DNA from: a virus
IMG/VR virus record: IMGVR_UViG_3300025769_000832
Location: 1 to 24,102 of that record
Strand: one strand, 5' to 3'
Length of the DNA: 24,102 nt
The position numbers and the translations under genes are program-made. Positions 3,590 to 22,235 of the stretch are shown here, piece after piece (the stretch's first letter is position 1; every line of letters starts with the position of its first letter). The notes beneath the pieces were generated by a model. The model was not told the origin of the DNA. It did not search any database and worked only from the letters and a program-made list of their open reading frames with translations.

Positions 3590-3753
3590 TGTTTAGGCAT
3601 CAAGCCGTGGGTCATCTCGCCAACGTCACGCCCCATTTCCATAGCCCTGCGTTCACAGGCAGCGCGGGTGTCGTAGGGGCCGCGAGTGTCGTGAAATTCA
3701 ATACAATCGGTTGGGTTTGCTATCGCACAAGCTAGTACGATTGCCTTAAACAT
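3550..3753 (-). CDS. Small phage protein with hydrophobic N terminus and conserved cysteines
   Basis: This 67-aa protein starts with a short hydrophobic stretch, M-F-K-A-I-V-L-A-C-A, possibly a weak signal or anchor. It then runs D-C-I-E-F-H-D-T-R-G-P-Y and A-A-C-E-R-R-A-M-E-M-G, with a further cysteine at 58. The C-x-E-F-x-D-T-R-G-P-Y pattern is familiar from marine-phage proteins of unknown function. The cysteines (9, 17, 33, 58) could form disulfides if it is exported, or Cys9 could be lipidated; neither is shown. AAGG lies four bases... just upstream of its ATG, which overlaps the end of the 58-aa gene. Confidence 0.65.
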   Translation of the reverse strand: MFKAIVLACAIANPTDCIEFHDTRGPYDTRAACERRAMEMGRDVGEMTHGLMPKQWRCQVLKKGMLS

Positions 3754-3922
3754 TGCCTTGGATGCGCTTGATAATGCGCCTCACCGTGTCGGTTTCGTAG
3801 ATACGAATCAAAATCCACACGCCAGTAAACAAAGCCACAACGTCAGGCACCATTGCCATATATGCGGCGGCGGTGCCGGTGCCAGCTACAACGTCAACGA
3901 TGACTTTGTTTTCCTCGTTCAT
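3746..3922 (-). CDS. 58-aa holin-like single-span membrane protein
   Basis: ATG 3922 is formed by the last base of the preceding stop context (TAATG), and translation ends at TAA 3746-3748. The product starts M-N-E-E-N-K-V-I-V-D and has a hydrophobic region from about 18 to 40 (A-Y-M-A-M-V-P-D-V-V-A-L-F-T-G-V-W-I-L). It then has I-R-I-Y-E-T-D-T-V and a basic tail. The R-I-Y-E-T-x-T-V ending is typical of small holin-like proteins annotated in many phages. Its ribosome-binding site is the GGAGA inside the C-terminal codons of the last array gene, so its synthesis is probably coupled to the adhesin array. Confidence 0.7.
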   Translation of the reverse strand: MNEENKVIVDVVAGTGTAAAYMAMVPDVVALFTGVWILIRIYETDTVRRIIKRIQGNV

Positions 3923-3936
3923 TATGCAAGGTCTCC
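3920..3936 (-). promoter_or_regulatory. GDLA-coded Shine-Dalgarno (array gene 8 to holin)
   Basis: GGA GAC CTT GCA TAA TG: the last four codons of the 3922-4317 gene supply GGAGA upstream of the holin-like gene's ATG (TAATG overlap, ten bases after GGAG). Confidence 0.75.
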
Positions 3937-4317
3937 AAAAATTTGAGTAGATATGCTATTCGCATTAGCGGAACTATTTATAGATGCTGCGTTTGTAGTC
4001 CAAAAGCCGCCTGAAGAAGAGGTAGAACGTGCATGACTTCCTGCTATTTCTGTACCTGTTAGCAATCCGAATGTAGTTTCATCAATAATTGCAGCACCAC
4101 CAAAAGAAAAATTGGCATTGTTCATATTGTTGGTAAATGCGTACTTATAATTACCAGTTCCGTTGTCGGTCAGTGTGCTTGAGTTAAAGCTATCTGCGAA
4201 AGCAATAGTTCCTGCTGTACCGTCAAAAAAGTTCCAAGCCTTCGCCAACCCCTCGACAGCATTAGGGCCGCTAGAGATACCGCTGCCAAACTCGGCTAGT
4301 TCTGCTGCTTTACTCAT
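3922..4317 (-). CDS. Array paralogue 8: short tail-fibre/adhesin-type protein
   Basis: This 131-aa protein is the last member of the family. The start at ATG 4317 overlaps the preceding TGA. The N terminus (M-S-K-A-A-E-L-A-E-F) differs from all other copies. The family core spans about 23-70: G-L-A-K-A-W-N-F-F-D-G-T, D-S-F-N-S-S-T-L-T-D-N-G-T-G-N-Y and N-N-M-N-N-A-N-F. It carries an inserted residue pair in the usual N-G-T-G-T turn. Residues 71-127 are variable and Ser/Asn/Thr-rich, and the end is the invariant G-D-L-A. The likely role is a virion surface or receptor-binding accessory. This is inferred from position behind the tail fibre and family resemblance, not proven. Confidence 0.75.
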   Translation of the reverse strand: MSKAAELAEFGSGISSGPNAVEGLAKAWNFFDGTAGTIAFADSFNSSTLTDNGTGNYKYAFTNNMNNANFSFGGAAIIDETTFGLLTGTEIAGSHARSTSSSGGFWTTNAASINSSANANSISTQIFGDLA

Positions 4318-4697
4318 GCTAGGTCTCCATTGATACAAACGTGCGTGTATGAAACATCAGTTCCACCAACTCCCGCAACAGCATTACTAAAATTACAAGC
4401 ACTTGCTGTTGATGTTGTATACCTTCCACCAATAGCAACACTATTGGTGTCGCCAGTTGCGCCAGTTACGTTTGCGCCGTACTCAGCGTTGTTCATAGCA
4501 CTTGTAAAAGTAACTGTATAATTTCCTGTTCCATTATCGGTGATACTTGCGGCGTTACTGCTTGAACGTATGGCAATGGTTCCAGTTCCGTTAATGTTGA
4601 CATATGCCTTCGCACTACCGTTGGCAACAGTAGACATACCCACGCTGTTGTTCCCAGCGGCATCCTTCAGGGTGTTTACTCTAAGTTCGCTTGCCAT
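4314..4697 (-). CDS. Array paralogue 7: short tail-fibre/adhesin-type protein
   Basis: This is a 127-aa member of the array family. It opens M-A-S-E-L-R-V-N-T-L and then has V-A-N-G-S-A-K-A-Y, a variant of the K-x-W entry to the core that is shared only with paralogue 3. The core at about 30-73 reads V-N-I-N-G-T-G-T-I-A-I-R, A-S-I-T-D-N-G-T-G-N-Y-T-V-T-F and A-M-N-N-A-E-Y. The variable part is 74-123, and the end is G-D-L-A. It lacks signal peptide and membrane segments. Placement as the fourth gene of the second block mirrors paralogue 3 in the first block. Confidence 0.8.
   Translation of the reverse strand: MASELRVNTLKDAAGNNSVGMSTVANGSAKAYVNINGTGTIAIRSSSNAASITDNGTGNYTVTFTSAMNNAEYGANVTGATGDTNSVAIGGRYTTSTASACNFSNAVAGVGGTDVSYTHVCINGDLA
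4315..4328 (-). promoter_or_regulatory. GDLA-coded Shine-Dalgarno (array gene 7 to 8)
   Basis: GGA GAC CTA GCA TGA: GGAG lies seven bases before the next ATG, which overlaps the TGA stop (ATGA). Confidence 0.75.
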
Positions 4698-4711
4698 TAT
4701 GCTAGGTCTCC
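4695..4711 (-). promoter_or_regulatory. GDLA-coded Shine-Dalgarno (array gene 6 to 7)
   Basis: GGA GAC CTA GCA TAA TG: the C-terminal codons of paralogue 6 form the ribosome-binding site of paralogue 7, with stop and start overlapping by one base. Confidence 0.75.
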
Positions 4712-5149
4712 TAAATGTGCTACATAGTTTTCTATGTGGTCGTATGATTGACCATTAGAACTTCCTGTTGAACCAAGTCCTCCATAATGTGTGATTTGAC
4801 TTGTTGTCTTAGAAATTACTGTTCCATCACCTGCTATGCCTACTTGAATTTGAAAAGTTGGACCCCTACTGTGATTGTATTCAGTAACCCCACTACAAAT
4901 AGGTGCATAGTTAGAATTAGAAAAAGATGAGGAAAAACCAACTGTATAGTTTCCCGTGCCACCATCTGTCAAACTACTGTTATTTAAGCTGTCACGAGTT
5001 GCTATCGTACCCGTACCATTAAAGTTAATCCACGCCTTCGCCAAACCCTGCTGAAGTGATTGCGTAGCCGCCCCACCCTCGCTAGTCACAGTAATGTCAC
5101 CAGCCGCTGTGATACCTTGCAGTTCGTCTACTTTTAAGATACTAGCCAT
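4697..5149 (-). CDS. Array paralogue 6: longest short tail-fibre/adhesin-type protein
   Basis: At 150 aa this is the longest array paralogue. Its N terminus, M-A-S-I-L-K-V-D-E-L followed by A-G-D-I-T-V-T-S-E-G-G-A-A-T at about 16-29 and L-Q-Q-G-L-A-K-A-W at 32-40, nearly repeats that of paralogue 2. The core follows with N-F-N-G-T-G-T-I-A-T-R-D-S-L-N-N-S-S-L-T-D at 42-62 and G-T-G-N-Y-T-V to about 81. The variable domain (82-146) is about 20 residues longer than in the sister copies and rich in Gly, Ser, Thr and His. The end is G-D-L-A. An N-terminal constant part with a swappable C-terminal binding domain is the natural reading. Confidence 0.8.
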   Translation of the reverse strand: MASILKVDELQGITAAGDITVTSEGGAATQSLQQGLAKAWINFNGTGTIATRDSLNNSSLTDGGTGNYTVGFSSSFSNSNYAPICSGVTEYNHSRGPTFQIQVGIAGDGTVISKTTSQITHYGGLGSTGSSNGQSYDHIENYVAHLGDLA

Positions 5150-5163
5150 TATGCAAGGTCTCC
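5147..5163 (-). promoter_or_regulatory. GDLA-coded Shine-Dalgarno (array gene 5 to 6)
   Basis: GGA GAC CTT GCA TAA TG at the junction of paralogues 5 and 6; one of two junctions besides none other in the array proper using CTT, the other being at 3920-3936. Confidence 0.75.
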
Positions 5164-5526
5164 GTTTGTCGTGATGGTCGTTATTGCACCATCTCTTGCA
5201 CCAGCACTTTCATTTCTGAAGTCCATTGCAAAATTACTTGCGGCAAGAGTGCGGGGATTAAAGGTTAATCCGATAGCTGTGTTCGCACTATTTTGGCCCG
5301 AACCATTGGGTGCATAATCTGCATCACTCATTGAGTTGGTGAAACTTGCAGTGTAATCACCTGTTCCATTGTCAGCGATTGAAGCAATATTTATTGAAGC
5401 CCTAATTGCCAGTGTACCTGTACTATTAAAATTTGCCCAAGCCTTCGCCGCACTTTGCTTAGTCAACTCAACAGGTGACGTACCGTCCTTCGCCGCAATG
5501 CTATCTACATTCAATACGCTGGTCAT
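5149..5526 (-). CDS. Array paralogue 5: short tail-fibre/adhesin-type protein
   Basis: This is a 125-aa protein. ATG 5526 overlaps the TGA of the upstream gene and has GGAG seven bases ahead, so I prefer it to an in-frame TTG further upstream. The N terminus has D-G-T-S-P-V-E-L-T-K-Q at 14-24, nearly the same as in paralogue 1. The core is K-A-W-A-N-F-N-S-T-G-T-L-A at 28-40, A-S-I-A-D-N-G-T-G-D-Y-T at 48-59 and S-M-S-D-A-D-Y to 71. Residues 72-121 are variable, with N-P-R and a D-F-R-N-E segment, and the end is G-D-L-A. It follows the second long fibre-type gene, as paralogue 1 follows the first. Confidence 0.8.
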   Translation of the reverse strand: MTSVLNVDSIAAKDGTSPVELTKQSAAKAWANFNSTGTLAIRASINIASIADNGTGDYTASFTNSMSDADYAPNGSGQNSANTAIGLTFNPRTLAASNFAMDFRNESAGARDGAITTITTNGDLA

Positions 5527-5984
5527 ACGATACTCCAATATCCGTTAACAGTGACGGTGGCATTGTCCTGTGTGATAGGCCCAGCCGATACGCCATTCTC
5601 ATCGCTGTCAATCGTAATGTCTGCGCTGATGGTCTGCCCATTCAAACGGATGATGCTGTCATTGCCCTTGAATGGATAGCGTGTGTCACTTTCAGTCTTG
5701 GTGTAGCTGTTCGCAATGCTAAAGGCATCATAGGCTACAATCTCCACCACATCATTCAAGCTGGCACCAGTGATAAGCACGATGCTTGTGCCGCTGGTGG
5801 CTGTGTAGTCAGTCACAGGCTTGAGTAGCACACCATTCTGATACACATCGACATACAGGCCATCCGTGTAGGTCAGTGTCTTGCTATCTGCATCACTGCC
5901 AGTAAAGCTAGTTTGACCAGCAGTGGCTTGGTAGATGTATCGGTTGCGAACACCGAAGGATGGGGATTTACCTATGTATGCCAT
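5523..5984 (-). CDS. Long fibre-type protein, copy 2
   Basis: This 153-aa protein is a paralogue of the 8376-8840 product. Both begin M-A-Y-[IL]-G-x-S-P. Both carry a beta-rich N-terminal half; here it is V-D-V-Y-Q-N-G-V-L-L-K-P-V-T-D-Y-T-A at 45-62, then G-T-S-I-V-L and D-V-V-E-I-V-A-Y. That is a segment type common at the start of marine-phage tail-fibre proteins. Both end in T-I-D-x-D-E-N and A-G-P-[IL]-T followed by T-V-T-V, a pattern of short beta repeats likely to trimerise. Here the end is N-G-Y-W-S-I-V. The start is ATG 5984, from the TAATG overlap with paralogue 4. Likely a fibre or adhesin subunit. Confidence 0.75.
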   Translation of the reverse strand: MAYIGKSPSFGVRNRYIYQATAGQTSFTGSDADSKTLTYTDGLYVDVYQNGVLLKPVTDYTATSGTSIVLITGASLNDVVEIVAYDAFSIANSYTKTESDTRYPFKGNDSIIRLNGQTISADITIDSDENGVSAGPITQDNATVTVNGYWSIV

Positions 5985-5998
5985 TATGCTAGGTCTCC
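5982..5998 (-). promoter_or_regulatory. GDLA-coded Shine-Dalgarno (array gene 4 to fibre copy 2)
   Basis: GGA GAC CTA GCA TAA TG serves a gene outside the short-paralogue family, so the device is not limited to paralogue-to-paralogue junctions. Confidence 0.75.
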
Positions 5999-6379
5999 GT
6001 GATAAACGTACGAACAAGTGCTTAAATCAGCTAATGAACCACTGGTGTTGTGCATACTCTGTTGTGGGCTGCCAGAGGAACTTTTTGCTTCAGTGGTGGA
6101 TACGCTTACTCCGTAAGAAGAACTATTTCCTATTGAATTTGAACTAATCGGATAATTTGCTGAACTCATATTATTTATTAAATTAGGCGTAAATCTTCCC
6201 GCTGACGTATCAGTTATTGAAGTCGTATTCAGGCTATCCAAAACAGCGGGCGTGGCTTGATTAAAATCACCCCAAGACTTCGCCAACCCCTGCTGGACAG
6301 AAGTGGTTACAGCACCGCCCTCAGACGTAGCCGTCAGGTTTGCACCCAAACCATCCTTTACAATCTGTGTCAGTGCCAT
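5984..6379 (-). CDS. Array paralogue 4: divergent short tail-fibre/adhesin-type protein
   Basis: This 131-aa protein is the most divergent core in the family. The N terminus keeps A-T-S-E-G-G-A-V-T at 17-25 and V-Q-Q-G-L-A-K-S-W at 28-36, as in paralogues 2 and 6. The N-G-T-G-T turn is replaced by N-Q-A-T-P, and the usual G-T-G-x-Y reads S-A-G-R-F. L-D-S-L-N-T-T-S-I-T-D and N-N-M-S-S-A-N-Y remain. The variable region (77-127) is very Ser-rich, and the end is H-G-D-L-A. It has a conventional GGAGATAGG ribosome-binding site after the assembly-protein gene, so it restarts the array after that insertion. Confidence 0.75.
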   Translation of the reverse strand: MALTQIVKDGLGANLTATSEGGAVTTSVQQGLAKSWGDFNQATPAVLDSLNTTSITDTSAGRFTPNLINNMSSANYPISSNSIGNSSSYGVSVSTTEAKSSSGSPQQSMHNTSGSLADLSTCSYVYHGDLA

Positions 6380-6390
6380 AACCTATCTCC

Positions 6391-6765
6391 TTATGCGTAA
6401 GGGCTATCGCCAAGTACGTCTGTATCCCAAGCTGCTTTTAGGTCGTTAATGTTAGAGGCTGATGTAATTGCAGAGTCTGCCGGTGCATCGCGCAGCGCAG
6501 CTTTCTTGGCTACTGATGCTGCTTTAGCAGTTGCATCGTCAGCTTCTAATGCCTTCATATACACAACATCCTCTGCATCAAGCAGTGGTGCGCGAACCTC
6601 ACGAACCTTGTCCTGGAATATTGTCTTTGCTGTTTCTAAATCCTCTGAGATAACTGAACCGCTAAGTGTCCAAGCACCTCTAAAGTCTCTGCTGTTTGGA
6701 ACGGTAGCAGTTGAAGCGTCAATCTGATTACCGTCCTTGTCTACGATGTAAGTTGTAACTGCCAT
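6391..6765 (-). CDS. Tail-fibre-assembly-like protein
   Basis: This 124-aa protein has S-R-D-F-R-G-A-W-T-L-S-G at 24-35, then a helical region with a K-V-R-E-V-R-A-P-L-L-D motif, D-V-V-Y-M-K-A-L-E and A-L-R-D-A-P-A-D. It closes with N-D-L-K-A-A-W. This order (R-x-F-R-x-A-W, then R-x-x-R-x-P-L-L, then L-R-D, then L-K-x-x-W) is the pattern I know from small phage proteins encoded beside tail fibres and often labelled tail-fibre assembly or DUF4376-like. It probably chaperones folding or attachment of the fibres around it. AGGAGA stands seven bases before ATG 6765. The gene sits inside the adhesin array, splitting paralogues 3 and 4. Confidence 0.65.
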   Translation of the reverse strand: MAVTTYIVDKDGNQIDASTATVPNSRDFRGAWTLSGSVISEDLETAKTIFQDKVREVRAPLLDAEDVVYMKALEADDATAKAASVAKKAALRDAPADSAITSASNINDLKAAWDTDVLGDSPYA

Positions 6766-6774
6766 TGTTTTCTC

Positions 6775-7242
6775 CTATGCGGCTACAGTTAGGTCATCAG
6801 AGATACGCCAAGCGTTTCTCCATTCGCGAGTTTGTGGTAACTGCTGCTTAGTACAGATTACCATCTTTGGGCGGTTGCCCTCATCCCAAGTCTGCCATAC
6901 AGACTGTGGACAATCTTTCATAATCAAGTATTCAATTGCTTCTTCTTCAGTCATTGCTGGCATTGGTTCTGTCTCATGCAACAGATAGCCACGAGTATGC
7001 TTCTTGAAGTCAGGTTGTGCTTCGTCCTTCGCCAGTTCGTGATATACCCAGACAGGTGGTAAGATACCGCCCTGAAGCGCACACGCCATCCAGTTAGGGT
7101 CAGGCACAAGTATCTTAGCGCACTCGTCAATGCTGCTTTCATAAACAACACGATAGTCTGACTGCACACCCTCTAGGTTTTCCTTTGCCCAGCATAGGCG
7201 GTCAAACAGGTGTGTGCCTTGAAATTCAGGTGTCACTGTCAT
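6775..7242 (-). CDS. Conserved phage protein of unknown function inside the fibre array
   Basis: This 155-aa protein starts at ATG 7242, overlapping the TGA of paralogue 3. It has L-F-D-R-L-C-W-A-K-E-N-L at 13-24, a Trp/Pro-rich middle (V-P-D-P-N-W-M, P-P-V-W-V-Y-H-E-L) and an acidic segment with E-E-E-A-I-E-Y-L. The last part reads R-E-W-R-N-A-W-R-I-S. It is soluble, with no repeats. I recall similar proteins beside tail-fibre genes in marine podophages but know no function. The R-E-W-R-N-A-W segment echoes R-D-F-R-G-A-W in the next gene, so the two may be partners or have a shared origin. Confidence 0.65.
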   Translation of the reverse strand: MTVTPEFQGTHLFDRLCWAKENLEGVQSDYRVVYESSIDECAKILVPDPNWMACALQGGILPPVWVYHELAKDEAQPDFKKHTRGYLLHETEPMPAMTEEEAIEYLIMKDCPQSVWQTWDEGNRPKMVICTKQQLPQTREWRNAWRISDDLTVAA

Positions 7243-7613
7243 GCGAGGTCTCCCGATGTTTGAAAACAAACCTGAGAACAATCTGTTGCAGAATTATTTT
7301 CATATGACTTAATACCACGCACAGTAGCTGAACGGTTTGTTAAAGTTAAATTAGCGCCTTGATTTGAAGAAGCGTTGTTTTTGGCTGTGGTGGTGCAATA
7401 GTTGCTAGAACTAAAGGCACTAGAGTGGGTAAAGTCATAGTCGCCAGTTCCACTGTCAGCAACAGATGCCACGTTTAGGCTGTCGTCTAATGAGATTGTT
7501 CCTGTGCCGTCTAATATAGCCCAGCTTTTTACACTACCATTCACAACGTAACTTGTATCAAGTGACCCAGCGGTGCTGTGTTCCAGCGTATCTGCTATAA
7601 TTTTTCCAGCCAT
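7239..7613 (-). CDS. Array paralogue 3: short tail-fibre/adhesin-type protein
   Basis: This 124-aa protein starts at ATG 7613 by TAATG overlap. The N terminus is M-A-G-K-I-I-A-D-T-L, then V-V-N-G-S-V-K-S-W at 23-31, a variant shared only with paralogue 7. The core runs D-G-T-G-T-I-S-L-D-D-S-L-N at 35-47, A-S-V-A-D-S-G-T-G-D-Y-D at 49-60 and S-S-S-N-Y to 72. The variable part holds an N-N-A-S-S-N-Q-G stretch and three cysteines, more than in most sister copies. The end is S-G-D-L-A. It is the fourth gene of the first block. Confidence 0.8.
   Translation of the reverse strand: MAGKIIADTLEHSTAGSLDTSYVVNGSVKSWAILDGTGTISLDDSLNVASVADSGTGDYDFTHSSAFSSSNYCTTTAKNNASSNQGANLTLTNRSATVRGIKSYENNSATDCSQVCFQTSGDLA
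7240..7253 (-). promoter_or_regulatory. GDLA-coded Shine-Dalgarno (array gene 3 to the 155-aa gene)
   Basis: GGA GAC CTC GCA TGA with GGAG seven bases ahead of ATG 7242; the downstream gene is not a paralogue. Confidence 0.75.
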
Positions 7614-7627
7614 TATGCGAGGTCTCC
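7611..7627 (-). promoter_or_regulatory. GDLA-coded Shine-Dalgarno (array gene 2 to 3)
   Basis: GGA GAC CTC GCA TAA TG; the ATG shares its first base with the end of the TAA stop region. Confidence 0.75.
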
Positions 7628-8002
7628 TAAAACCATAAACTGCGCTTCTGAAACATCCGCAACAGAACCTGTGCTTCCCACACGATAAAATGTATCTACA
7701 TATGCTACATTCATTTCGTTGCCGGAACATACGTTAGTGCTTGCGTTGCCAGCAAAACCAGCGGCTGCGTAGTCATTGTTTGCCATATTGTTTGTGTAGT
7801 TGGGGCGGTAATTTCCTGTGCCAACATCCGTAAGACTGGCGTAGTTTAGGCTGTTAGTAATGGATGTTCCTGCATTGTGCTGTATCCAAGCCTTCATCAA
7901 ACCCTGCTGCAACTGCATAGTCGCCGCACCGCCTTCAGAGGTCACTGTGATGTCACCAGCGGAGGTCTTGCCAGTGAGGGTGTCTACTTTTATCTCACTC
8001 AT
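7613..8002 (-). CDS. Array paralogue 2: short tail-fibre/adhesin-type protein
   Basis: This is a 129-aa protein. It opens M-S-E-I-K-V-D-T-L-T and has A-G-D-I-T-V-T-S-E-G-G-A-A-T at 15-28 and L-Q-Q-G-L-M-K-A-W at 31-39, almost as in paralogue 6. The core is somewhat degenerate (H-N-A-G-T-S-I in place of N-G-T-G-T-I), but N-S-L-N-Y-A-S-L-T-D and G-T-G-N-Y are kept, ending with N-N-M-A-N-N-D-Y at 71-78. Variable residues 79-125 follow, then G-D-L-A. The start overlaps the TGA of paralogue 1. Confidence 0.8.
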   Translation of the reverse strand: MSEIKVDTLTGKTSAGDITVTSEGGAATMQLQQGLMKAWIQHNAGTSITNSLNYASLTDVGTGNYRPNYTNNMANNDYAAAGFAGNASTNVCSGNEMNVAYVDTFYRVGSTGSVADVSEAQFMVLGDLA

Positions 8003-8379
8003 GCTAGGTCTCCAATCAAACCAGTAGATTGCAAATCTTGGTCTTGTAAGGTACTTGCACTTCCAAAATTTCTTGACCGCATAGCACTCGTTGTCTGTGT
8101 AGAAATTGCGTATGGCGACATAACAACAGCAGCGTGAGTAGCACCCGCACCAGCATTCCCAAAGATTGCGTAGTTTACTGCGCTGAAGGCATTGCTAATT
8201 GTTACAGTATAGTCGCCTGTTCCATTGTCCGTAAGACTACTAAAGTTAAGACTGTCTCGTGCTGCAATCGTACCTGTGCCGTTAAAGTTTACCCACGATT
8301 TTAATGCTTCCTGTTTAGTCAGTGTGACAGGACTGGTGCCATCGCTGGCAGTGATTGTGTCTGTGCGTAATTCACTCAT
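7999..8379 (-). CDS. Array paralogue 1: short tail-fibre/adhesin-type protein
   Basis: This is the first of the eight short paralogues in transcription order, 126 aa, and gives the clearest view of the family plan. Residues 1-25 are an N-terminal segment (M-S-E-L-R-T-D-T-I, then D-G-T-S-P-V-T-L-T-K-Q). The core is 26-70 (L-K-S-W-V-N-F-N-G-T-G-T-I-A, R-D-S-L-N-F-S-S-L-T-D-N-G-T-G-D-Y-T-V). A variable region follows at 71-122, and the invariant G-D-L-A at 123-126. The core motif is familiar from C-terminal parts of large marine-phage tail fibres; here it is a free-standing protein. The preceding gene ends with GGTGATAGCATGA, a weaker version of the same start device. Confidence 0.8.
   Translation of the reverse strand: MSELRTDTITASDGTSPVTLTKQEALKSWVNFNGTGTIAARDSLNFSSLTDNGTGDYTVTISNAFSAVNYAIFGNAGAGATHAAVVMSPYAISTQTTSAMRSRNFGSASTLQDQDLQSTGLIGDLA
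8000..8013 (-). promoter_or_regulatory. GDLA-coded Shine-Dalgarno (array gene 1 to 2)
   Basis: GGA GAC CTA GCA TGA with ATGA overlap; first use of the device in the direction of transcription. Confidence 0.75.
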
Positions 8380-8840
8380 GCTATCACCAGATTACCGCCG
8401 GATGTTACCGTCAGTGTTACCCCTGTTGCTACAGTCAATGGCCCAGCAGCCAGTGCATTTTCATCTGCATCAATGGTTGTGTTGGTGTCTAGCTGTTGCT
8501 GATGGACACGGAAAATGTCGCCACCGCCAGCATTAATCTCACCATTCTCACCTTTGAATGTGCCACCACCACCACCGCCAGTAGATGTTACAAGGGCTTT
8601 GCCTTGAAAGTTCACATAGAAATCATCTGTAGCAACAATGCTGCCTGTCATAGACAAGCTAGTGCCACTTACAGTGTACGCAACGGTAGGTTCCTGACGG
8701 ACATTGTTTACAAAAACCTCTATCTCAGCAGCGTTACCTACGGGATGGTCTAGCGTAAAAGATGTGCCAGTGCCACCAGTCAAGTCCTGATAGGCCATTG
8801 CTGTGGTTTGTACTGCCGGTGATAACCCAAGGTATGCCAT
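8376..8840 (-). CDS. Long fibre-type protein, copy 1
   Basis: This 154-aa protein starts M-A-Y-L-G-L-S-P and pairs with the 5523-5984 gene. Its first half has I-E-V-F-V-N-N-V-R-Q-E-P at 40-51 and V-S-G-T-S-L-S-M-T, the beta-rich fibre segment. A six-glycine run at 88-93 separates this from the C-terminal part. There, G-T-F-K-G-E-N-G-E-I-N leads to T-T-I-D-A-D-E-N-A-L-A-A-G-P-L-T at 121-136 and a strand-repeat ending L-T-V-T-S-G-G-N-L-V-I-A. The flexible glycine linker suggests two separately folding halves. It probably forms part of the tail-fibre or adhesin complex; no catalytic motif is visible. Confidence 0.75.
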   Translation of the reverse strand: MAYLGLSPAVQTTAMAYQDLTGGTGTSFTLDHPVGNAAEIEVFVNNVRQEPTVAYTVSGTSLSMTGSIVATDDFYVNFQGKALVTSTGGGGGGTFKGENGEINAGGGDIFRVHQQQLDTNTTIDADENALAAGPLTVATGVTLTVTSGGNLVIA

Positions 8841-21371: not shown

Positions 21372-22235
21372 TTAAGCTGATTCGTCACAGTCAATCTGGA
21401 CAACTTTTTCTTCTTCCATACGAGTGGAACCGATTGACATGCAATAGTACACCTGAGTTGCATAGCCTTTGTCGCTACGCTCATCAATACGCGCCATTAC
21501 GTCACGGCCCACTGCCAATGCAAGACCATCCTCTGCCCATGCAAAGCATGAACGGATGTTGCCAGTTTTTGACAGACGGTTAGAAACGATGAAGTTAAAG
21601 CCCATGAACTGGTTTACTTCACCTTGAACAAGTGCCTTCACAGTGTTGAAGTCGCTTGATGTGACGTTTGTGTCAGCCAAGAGTGCTTCAATCTGGTCAG
21701 GGCCACATGCGATGTAACGTGGGATAGATGGGTCAACATCTGCCAAGTCAAGAATCTTCTTGGCTTCACGCAACTTTGCAAGTGACATGTCAGCAGAACC
21801 GTTAGCAATTTGCTGGCCTGCTGGCAACGCTGTTGAGGTTGAACCTGTCTCACCAGTAAATGCTGTGCCGAGTGCTGAAGCGATGATTTCATCGTCCATT
21901 GCGCGGCCCATAGCTGCGGCAGCAGCTTGTGCATATGCTGATGTTGGGTCGATAAGCATGCGTACTTTGTCCTGGTCATCAATCAGGTCTGCATACTCAT
22001 AGTCAACGAGTGATACACGGCGACGTGCGTGTGGTGTATCAATCTGTGGTGTGTCGGCGTGGCGAGTTGTACGCTTTTGCGCAGTTGCCTTACCAACCTG
22101 GTCAAAGAAAGCATTTTTACCAGTCATATTCTCTACGCGCACCGCATCACGCAGACGGGAACCCATCTGCTGCGATAGCATCTGCACGTTTGCAGAATAC
22201 TGCTGGACAAATGCCGTGGTTACTTCTGTGGACAT
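21372..22235 (-). CDS. Major capsid protein
   Basis: This 287-aa HK97-fold capsid protein is of the kind found in many marine and N4/T7-type podophages. It starts F-V-Q-Q-Y-S-A-N-V-Q-M-L-S-Q-Q, then has F-F-D-Q-V-G-K-A, R-H-A-D-T-P-Q-I-D-T-P-H-A-R-R-R-V and L-V-D-Y-E-Y-A-D-L-I-D-D-Q-D-K. A-A-A-A-M-G-R-A-M-D-D-E-I-I-A-S at about 105-120 marks the long helix region. It ends G-S-T-R-M-E-E-E-K-V-V-Q-I, a standard closing. The length is short for T7 gp10 (about 345 aa) but normal for this capsid family. A very strong ribosome-binding site precedes it. Confidence 0.95.
   Translation of the reverse strand: MSTEVTTAFVQQYSANVQMLSQQMGSRLRDAVRVENMTGKNAFFDQVGKATAQKRTTRHADTPQIDTPHARRRVSLVDYEYADLIDDQDKVRMLIDPTSAYAQAAAAAMGRAMDDEIIASALGTAFTGETGSTSTALPAGQQIANGSADMSLAKLREAKKILDLADVDPSIPRYIACGPDQIEALLADTNVTSSDFNTVKALVQGEVNQFMGFNFIVSNRLSKTGNIRSCFAWAEDGLALAVGRDVMARIDERSDKGYATQVYYCMSIGSTRMEEEKVVQIDCDESA

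Follow-up and report, generated by a model that had tools for sequence, protein, structure and literature searches.

A GDLA junction that likely doubles as the next gene's ribosome-binding site in an ordered array of exchangeable phage tail-tip genes

Analysis of a viral DNA of 24,102 nucleotides (IMG/VR record IMGVR_UViG_3300025769_000832; "the window" denotes this whole stretch) points to an array of tail-tip genes laid out as ordered cassettes, in which a short junction probably does double duty as the C-terminal residues GDLA of one protein and as the Shine-Dalgarno (SD) sequence of the following gene, with translation of the neighbours coupled and the modules exchangeable; we consider this reading likely. 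As we envisage it, each gene would open with an N-terminal tag particular to its slot (some 22 residues, in part helical in a structure model), continue with an exchangeable beta-domain of ~100 residues and close with a common 3' junction, GGAGAC-CTN-GCA plus TAATG or ATGA, which would be read twice, first as the last four codons of the upstream gene (GDLA) and then as the SD of the next. Because the next start overlaps the stop and the SD lies at the junction, the array genes are very probably translated from one mRNA by termination-reinitiation, and even stoichiometry among the tips may be expected. Since the landing site for the next gene sits at the module border, exchange of modules between slots would leave the following gene active instead of silencing it, and we surmise that the evolution of the last four residues is shaped mainly by their role as the leader of that gene.

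Junctions and neighbouring genes in the window

Eight short paralogous genes, designated slots A to H (Table 1), all match the phrog_11355 tail fiber family (PHROG profiles, E 5e-13 to 8e-22); a Pfam search of the tip genes gave no match above cut-offs. As the initial annotation had claimed, all eight end in GGA GAC CTN GCA followed by an overlapping start, the stop-start overlap being 4 or 1 nt in 8/8, with the ATGA form at three junctions (8013, 7253 and 4328) and TAATG at five. A scan of the whole window found eight GGAGACCTNGCAT blocks on the minus strand (the 5' G of each is the higher coordinate of its row in Table 1), none on the plus strand and none elsewhere. The proposed spacing was likewise borne out, the distance from the end of GGAG to the next ATG being 7 nt at ATGA junctions and 10 nt at TAATG junctions, and the Leu codon is CTA in four copies, CTC in two and CTT in two. 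Fixation of GCA at the ATGA junctions was discarded as evidence, being circular, as its final A belongs to the ATG. The chance of GGA plus GAC in 8/8 copies would be ~1e-8 were the copies independent, which they are not; the real test of junction conservation is the comparison with relatives.

The same device serves three non-paralogues, as had been proposed, namely the 155-aa gene, short fibre copy 2 and the 58-aa gene. The initial annotation needs correcting on two details: the residue preceding GDLA is not unique to each copy (I, L, S, H, N, L, N, F, with L and N each occurring twice; His in 179/456 relatives), and the 58-aa gene behind the last block, described there as holin-like, has no holin match. 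A clear holin, of the GTA-type with three helices, is encoded at 1784-2179 and, together with an M15 peptidase endolysin at 1183-1638, likely represents the actual lysis genes; beside them lies a gene of the PD-(D/E)XK endonuclease family (PF11645; 2656-3093). The tail of fibre copy 1, GGTGATAGC (about 8379-8390), is a weaker SD-like word that is kept across loci ahead of slot A.

Table 1. Genes and junction blocks of the array in the window
Feature	Position	Strand	Sequence features	Profile match
Short fibre copy 1	8376..8840	-	MAYLGLSP...NLVIA; tail GGTGATAGC precedes slot A	
Slot A tip gene	7999..8379	-	ORF; tag MSELRTDTI, GDLA end	phrog_11355 tail fiber, E 4e-16
Junction	8002..8013	-	GGAGACCTAGCA; GDLA codons and putative SD of slot B	
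Slot B tip gene	7613..8002	-	tag MSEIKVDTL, GDLA end	
Junction	7616..7627	-	GGAGACCTCGCA; GDLA codons and putative SD of slot C	
Slot C tip gene	7239..7613	-	tag MAGKIIAD, GDLA end	
Junction	7242..7253	-	GGAGACCTCGCA; GDLA codons and putative SD of 155-aa gene	
155-aa non-paralogue	6775..7242	-	putatively started from GDLA block	weak HNH-like match, phrog_5411, E 0.0013
124-aa gene interrupting array	6391..6765	-	SPYA end, then intergenic SD	phrog_20196, E 5e-32
Slot D tip gene	5984..6379	-	tag MALTQIV, GDLA end	
Junction	5987..5998	-	GGAGACCTAGCA; GDLA codons and putative SD of fibre copy 2	
Short fibre copy 2	5523..5984	-	MAYIGKSP...YWSIV; tail TGG AGT provides slot E with GGAG in another frame	
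Slot E tip gene	5149..5526	-	tag MTSVLNVD, GDLA end	
Junction	5152..5163	-	GGAGACCTTGCA; GDLA codons and putative SD of slot F	
Slot F tip gene	4697..5149	-	tag MASILKVDE, GDLA end	
Junction	4700..4711	-	GGAGACCTAGCA; GDLA codons and putative SD of slot G	
Slot G tip gene	4314..4697	-	tag MASELRVN, GDLA end; structure modelled	
Junction	4317..4328	-	GGAGACCTAGCA; GDLA codons and putative SD of slot H	
Slot H tip gene	3922..4317	-	tag MSKAAELA, GDLA end	
Junction	3925..3936	-	GGAGACCTTGCA; GDLA codons and putative SD of 58-aa gene	
58-aa gene	3746..3922	-	putatively started from last GDLA block	

Conservation of the terminal codons among relatives

Homology searches of IMG/VR yielded 633 distinct relatives with downstream sequence, of which 483 were coupled, defined as having an ATG that overlaps the stop; all counts were taken without correction for shared descent. 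Loci fetched by pattern (L089-L198), having been chosen by motif, were left out of the codon frequency tests and included in the slot, swap and variant analyses and in the FR control below. An alignment of the eight paralogues, tried as seed for a collection scan, was dropped as too divergent. GDLA ends 446/483 coupled relatives vs. 11/150 not called coupled, several of these 11 being followed by a GTG start or by one that lies 3-4 nt on. Among the 446 coupled GDLA genes, Gly is encoded by GGA in 438, compared with 27.6% elsewhere in the same genes; Asp is GAC in 419/446 (94%; background 35%), while Leu uses five codons (CTC, CTA, TTA, CTT, TTG), with a CTC share of 42% vs. a 3.5% background. 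By position, conservation is near-complete from -12 on, dipping at the Leu codon, and in 470/489 GDLA-type genes the SD word falls within the upstream coding sequence. Only six GDLA genes are clearly uncoupled, five of them using GGA and most often a TAG stop, too few to settle whether GGA is kept without coupling. A genome collection search returned two relatives only, from an Aminobacter genome and an Agrobacterium MAG (L353, L354), in which the tip domain ends long ORFs (352, 536 aa), the Aminobacter ORF finishing in GGA GAC TAA AATG; a relative in Vibrio phage 1.052.A has neither a GDLA nor an FGD end.

Several lines of evidence support that selection acts on the nucleotides GGAG within the GDLA tail. 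In all seven GSLA variants (Asp to Ser), the codons are GGG AGT or GGG AGC, which rebuild GGAG one base along, while Ser elsewhere in these genes is AGY in 41% and TCN in 59%; that these variants are always GGG AGY suggests that GGAG is the conserved word. Replacement of Asp by Glu or Gly mostly keeps GGAG as well; the word is missing from a minority, comprising Asn, Tyr and some GGG forms. At the passage from fibre copy 2 to slot E, where the upstream tail is WSIV and out of the GDLA frame, Ser is AGT/AGC in 113/113 WSIV ends and GGAG stands at -10 in 89/94. The most direct comparison comes from a sister lineage with VFGD and similar ends, as evidenced by: 1) Gly is GGA in 73/81 genes with an ATG/GTG within 10 nt vs. 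14/47 without (Fisher p 2e-12, which overstates independence as the loci are related; the downstream contexts differ); 2) for GD ends only, the counts are 54/57 with a close start vs. 7/30 without; 3) among 23 loci with both kinds of junction, 17 have GGA at the close and another codon at the far junction, and none the reverse. At three exceptions in this lineage, an ATG at +6 opens a frame below our length cut-off.

FGD tips without a following start keep FGD, encoded with GGC/GGT. Terminal Gly-Asp therefore exists without coupling and GD is not purely a by-product; because it also ends these uncoupled relatives, the tail has in part a protein-level history. The original proposal, that the tail is a by-product of SD selection, survives in part: selection on GGAG supports it, but Gly-Asp persists in uncoupled genes and directly follows the last beta strand in the structure model. 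We interpret the data as supporting a tail that doubles as the SD of the next gene and, in the GDLA clade, behaves as its leader.

The other fixed synonymous sites are less readily attributed to the ribosome. GAC as an extension of the SD was rejected, since GAT would pair at least as well with the 16S tail and FGD genes use GAT; the excess of GAC, as well as that of CTC, is unexplained by pairing with rRNA. A third, FR lineage (IFR ends) conserves TTC in 96/109 vs. 25%, together with CGC, and has no SD in its coding end, the SD lying in the spacer in 83/117 and being absent in 31/117; in such arrays (e.g., L040, L057, L252) the tips end ATC TTC CGC TAA. Since terminal codons are conserved in this lineage where no SD is present, synonymous conservation cannot by itself be taken as proof of SD selection, and the initial attribution of the fixed sites to the SD is retained for GGA and withdrawn as a general account. 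We read the FR codon conservation as a recombination-border effect operating alongside SD selection, other causes being possible. The same observations, together with the over-conservation of GAC and CTC without pairing value and the finding that between-slot swaps break at the junction on their 3' side (see below), would suit the alternative that the junction is a 3' homology border for module exchange, in which recombination would repeatedly propagate an identical stretch of 12-15 bases and the SD role would be secondary. This is a serious but somewhat doubtful alternative, as it predicts neither the choice of GGA vs. GGC/GGT by distance to the next start, nor the compensated GGG AGY variants, nor GGAG in the unrelated WSIV tail.

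We deem it unlikely that GDLA is a functional protein motif (the end of the last strand, a subunit contact or a processing signal) around which an SD was fitted. The choice among synonymous Gly codons goes with the downstream start, substitution of GDLA by GSLA, GELA or GGLA is seen mainly where GGAG survives, FR-type relatives do without GD, and GDLA is almost confined to coupled genes; what speaks for such a motif is the recurrence of terminal GD in uncoupled relatives and long fibres as well as the slot G model (mean pLDDT 85.7), which places GDLA (residues 124-127) right after the last strand (117-123) with a pLDDT of about 92.

Slots, exchanged modules and the linkage of the tail

About a dozen N-terminal tags were recognised (219/811 genes were not assigned), and their order is largely kept: A>B in 29/32, B>C in 59/75, E>F in 95/104, F>G in 78/104, G>H in 74/93 and D>fibre 2 in 6/7. 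Tag identity is 69-89% within slots vs. 34% between them, while the C-terminal modules are 24-27% identical within and 24% between slots (22% when shuffled), differing across their entire length and also in length. Recent simple duplication of one gene, which would account for the homology of all copies and for their common junction, is thus highly improbable, given module bodies near shuffled identity, seven proteins only 30-43% identical to the first, Leu codons and stops that vary while Gly does not, and a pattern that extends across hundreds of contigs.

To delineate exchange, modules of different loci were paired when the 40 residues ahead of the tail were at least 80% identical, and pairs were kept if their tags were clearly the same or different. 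Of the 113 pairs, 74 carry different tags and 39 the same tag, where random pairing would give ~12% in the same slot. As an example, the slot B module of L199, the contig that matches the window with slot B included and through which the window's slot B was compared, is identical over 42 residues to the slot G module of L302. Modules swapped between slots span about 100 residues, their DNA identity extending over ~300 nt and dropping at the stop (the 3' border). The 5' border falls 4-6 residues before an AKAW motif in 27/48 and matches the domain boundary, since the slot G model has helices within residues 12-27 followed by a beta domain. Many phage tail fibres finish in similar predicted domains, and a Foldseek search against the PDB gave weak matches only (best, cyanophage Pam1 tailspike, E 0.13); the modules may serve in receptor binding, and homologous recombination is a plausible mechanism for their exchange.

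The tail is linked to what lies downstream of it. Stop geometry sorts with the downstream slot (TAATG in 110/110 before G and 72/72 before C; ATGA in 72/73 before H), and the mutual information between Leu codon and downstream family is 0.265 bits vs. 0.067 +/- 0.012 upon shuffling. Among swapped modules, 51% have matching Leu codons, a value between the 33% expected if the codon followed the downstream slot and the 80% identity at third positions in the swapped module body, implying that crossovers do not occur at one point; so they would appear to fall at or inside the GDLA/SD block. A GSLA junction, GGGAGTCTCGCATAATGGCTGGAAAA, occurs behind five unrelated modules and always before slot C. 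Because one variant recurs behind unrelated modules with the same next gene, we surmise that the tail evolves as the leader of the downstream gene, and that the last four residues of the upstream protein are largely that leader.

We further postulate, with the arguments for and against evenly poised, that the 12-base block is a dual-use connector in a grammar of tag, tip and connector, acting at once as ribosome-binding site for the gene that follows, as shared C-terminal peptide of the one before and as 3' crossover border. If so, phages could reshuffle many receptor tips while the polycistronic operon stays translatable.

Relation to known systems and phage context

It is already known that SD sites can lie inside upstream genes and influence how these genes end (PMC2784483, PMC6728339), and coupled pairs of overlapping genes often encode subunits of heteromeric complexes (PMC10666635, available part). 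Termination-reinitiation at overlapping genes (PMC6728339, PMC10666635) resembles the array in its short stop-start overlaps and in an SD inside the upstream gene; the array differs in that one near-invariant C-terminal peptide would supply the SD in many successive swappable genes, the coupling here being read from sequence. Likewise, the adaptation of gene ends to the next SD in PMC2784483 (citing Eyre-Walker) covers the stop codon and spacing, whereas in the array it is the four C-terminal amino acids of a protein family that are affected, and the sister lineage switches between GGA and GGC within genomes. Variable receptor modules are known in marine phages (metaviromic islands; PMC3909814), with conserved N-terminal attachment and variable C-terminal recognition, as here; in contrast to those, the array consists of many small separate genes in fixed order, with modules exchanged between slots.

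The nearest counterpart is Puniceispirillum phage HMO-2011 (GU557055), with a syntenic array that has five GDLA junctions and in which most genes are annotated as putative tail fiber proteins; the window array shares 76% DNA identity with it over 39% of the array. Junction and slots are unannotated in HMO-2011, which also carries additional genes without GDLA, a C1q-domain gene among them, and they are not described in the available text of two papers on HMO-2011-type phages (PMC6918029, PMC9038755). The 155-aa gene with the weak HNH-like match keeps the same place in the HMO-2011 array.

The junction is found in a large group of marine bacteriophages. For these abundant phages, it may offer a modular route to reshuffle host-recognition tips with expression unbroken. 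More generally, the array may be a natural case, with controls inside the same genomes, of a conserved protein terminus set largely by the start signal of the next gene, and a warning that C-terminal motifs in operons need not reflect protein function.

The 15 best matches of the major capsid protein (window 21372-22235) are all HTVC010P-type or other pelagiphages (66-76% identity), with HMO-2011 not among them. As the capsid is HTVC010P-like while the array is HMO-2011-like, the tip array (window 3922-8379) appears to move between phage groups. At 44-48%, the GC content is high for a pelagiphage.
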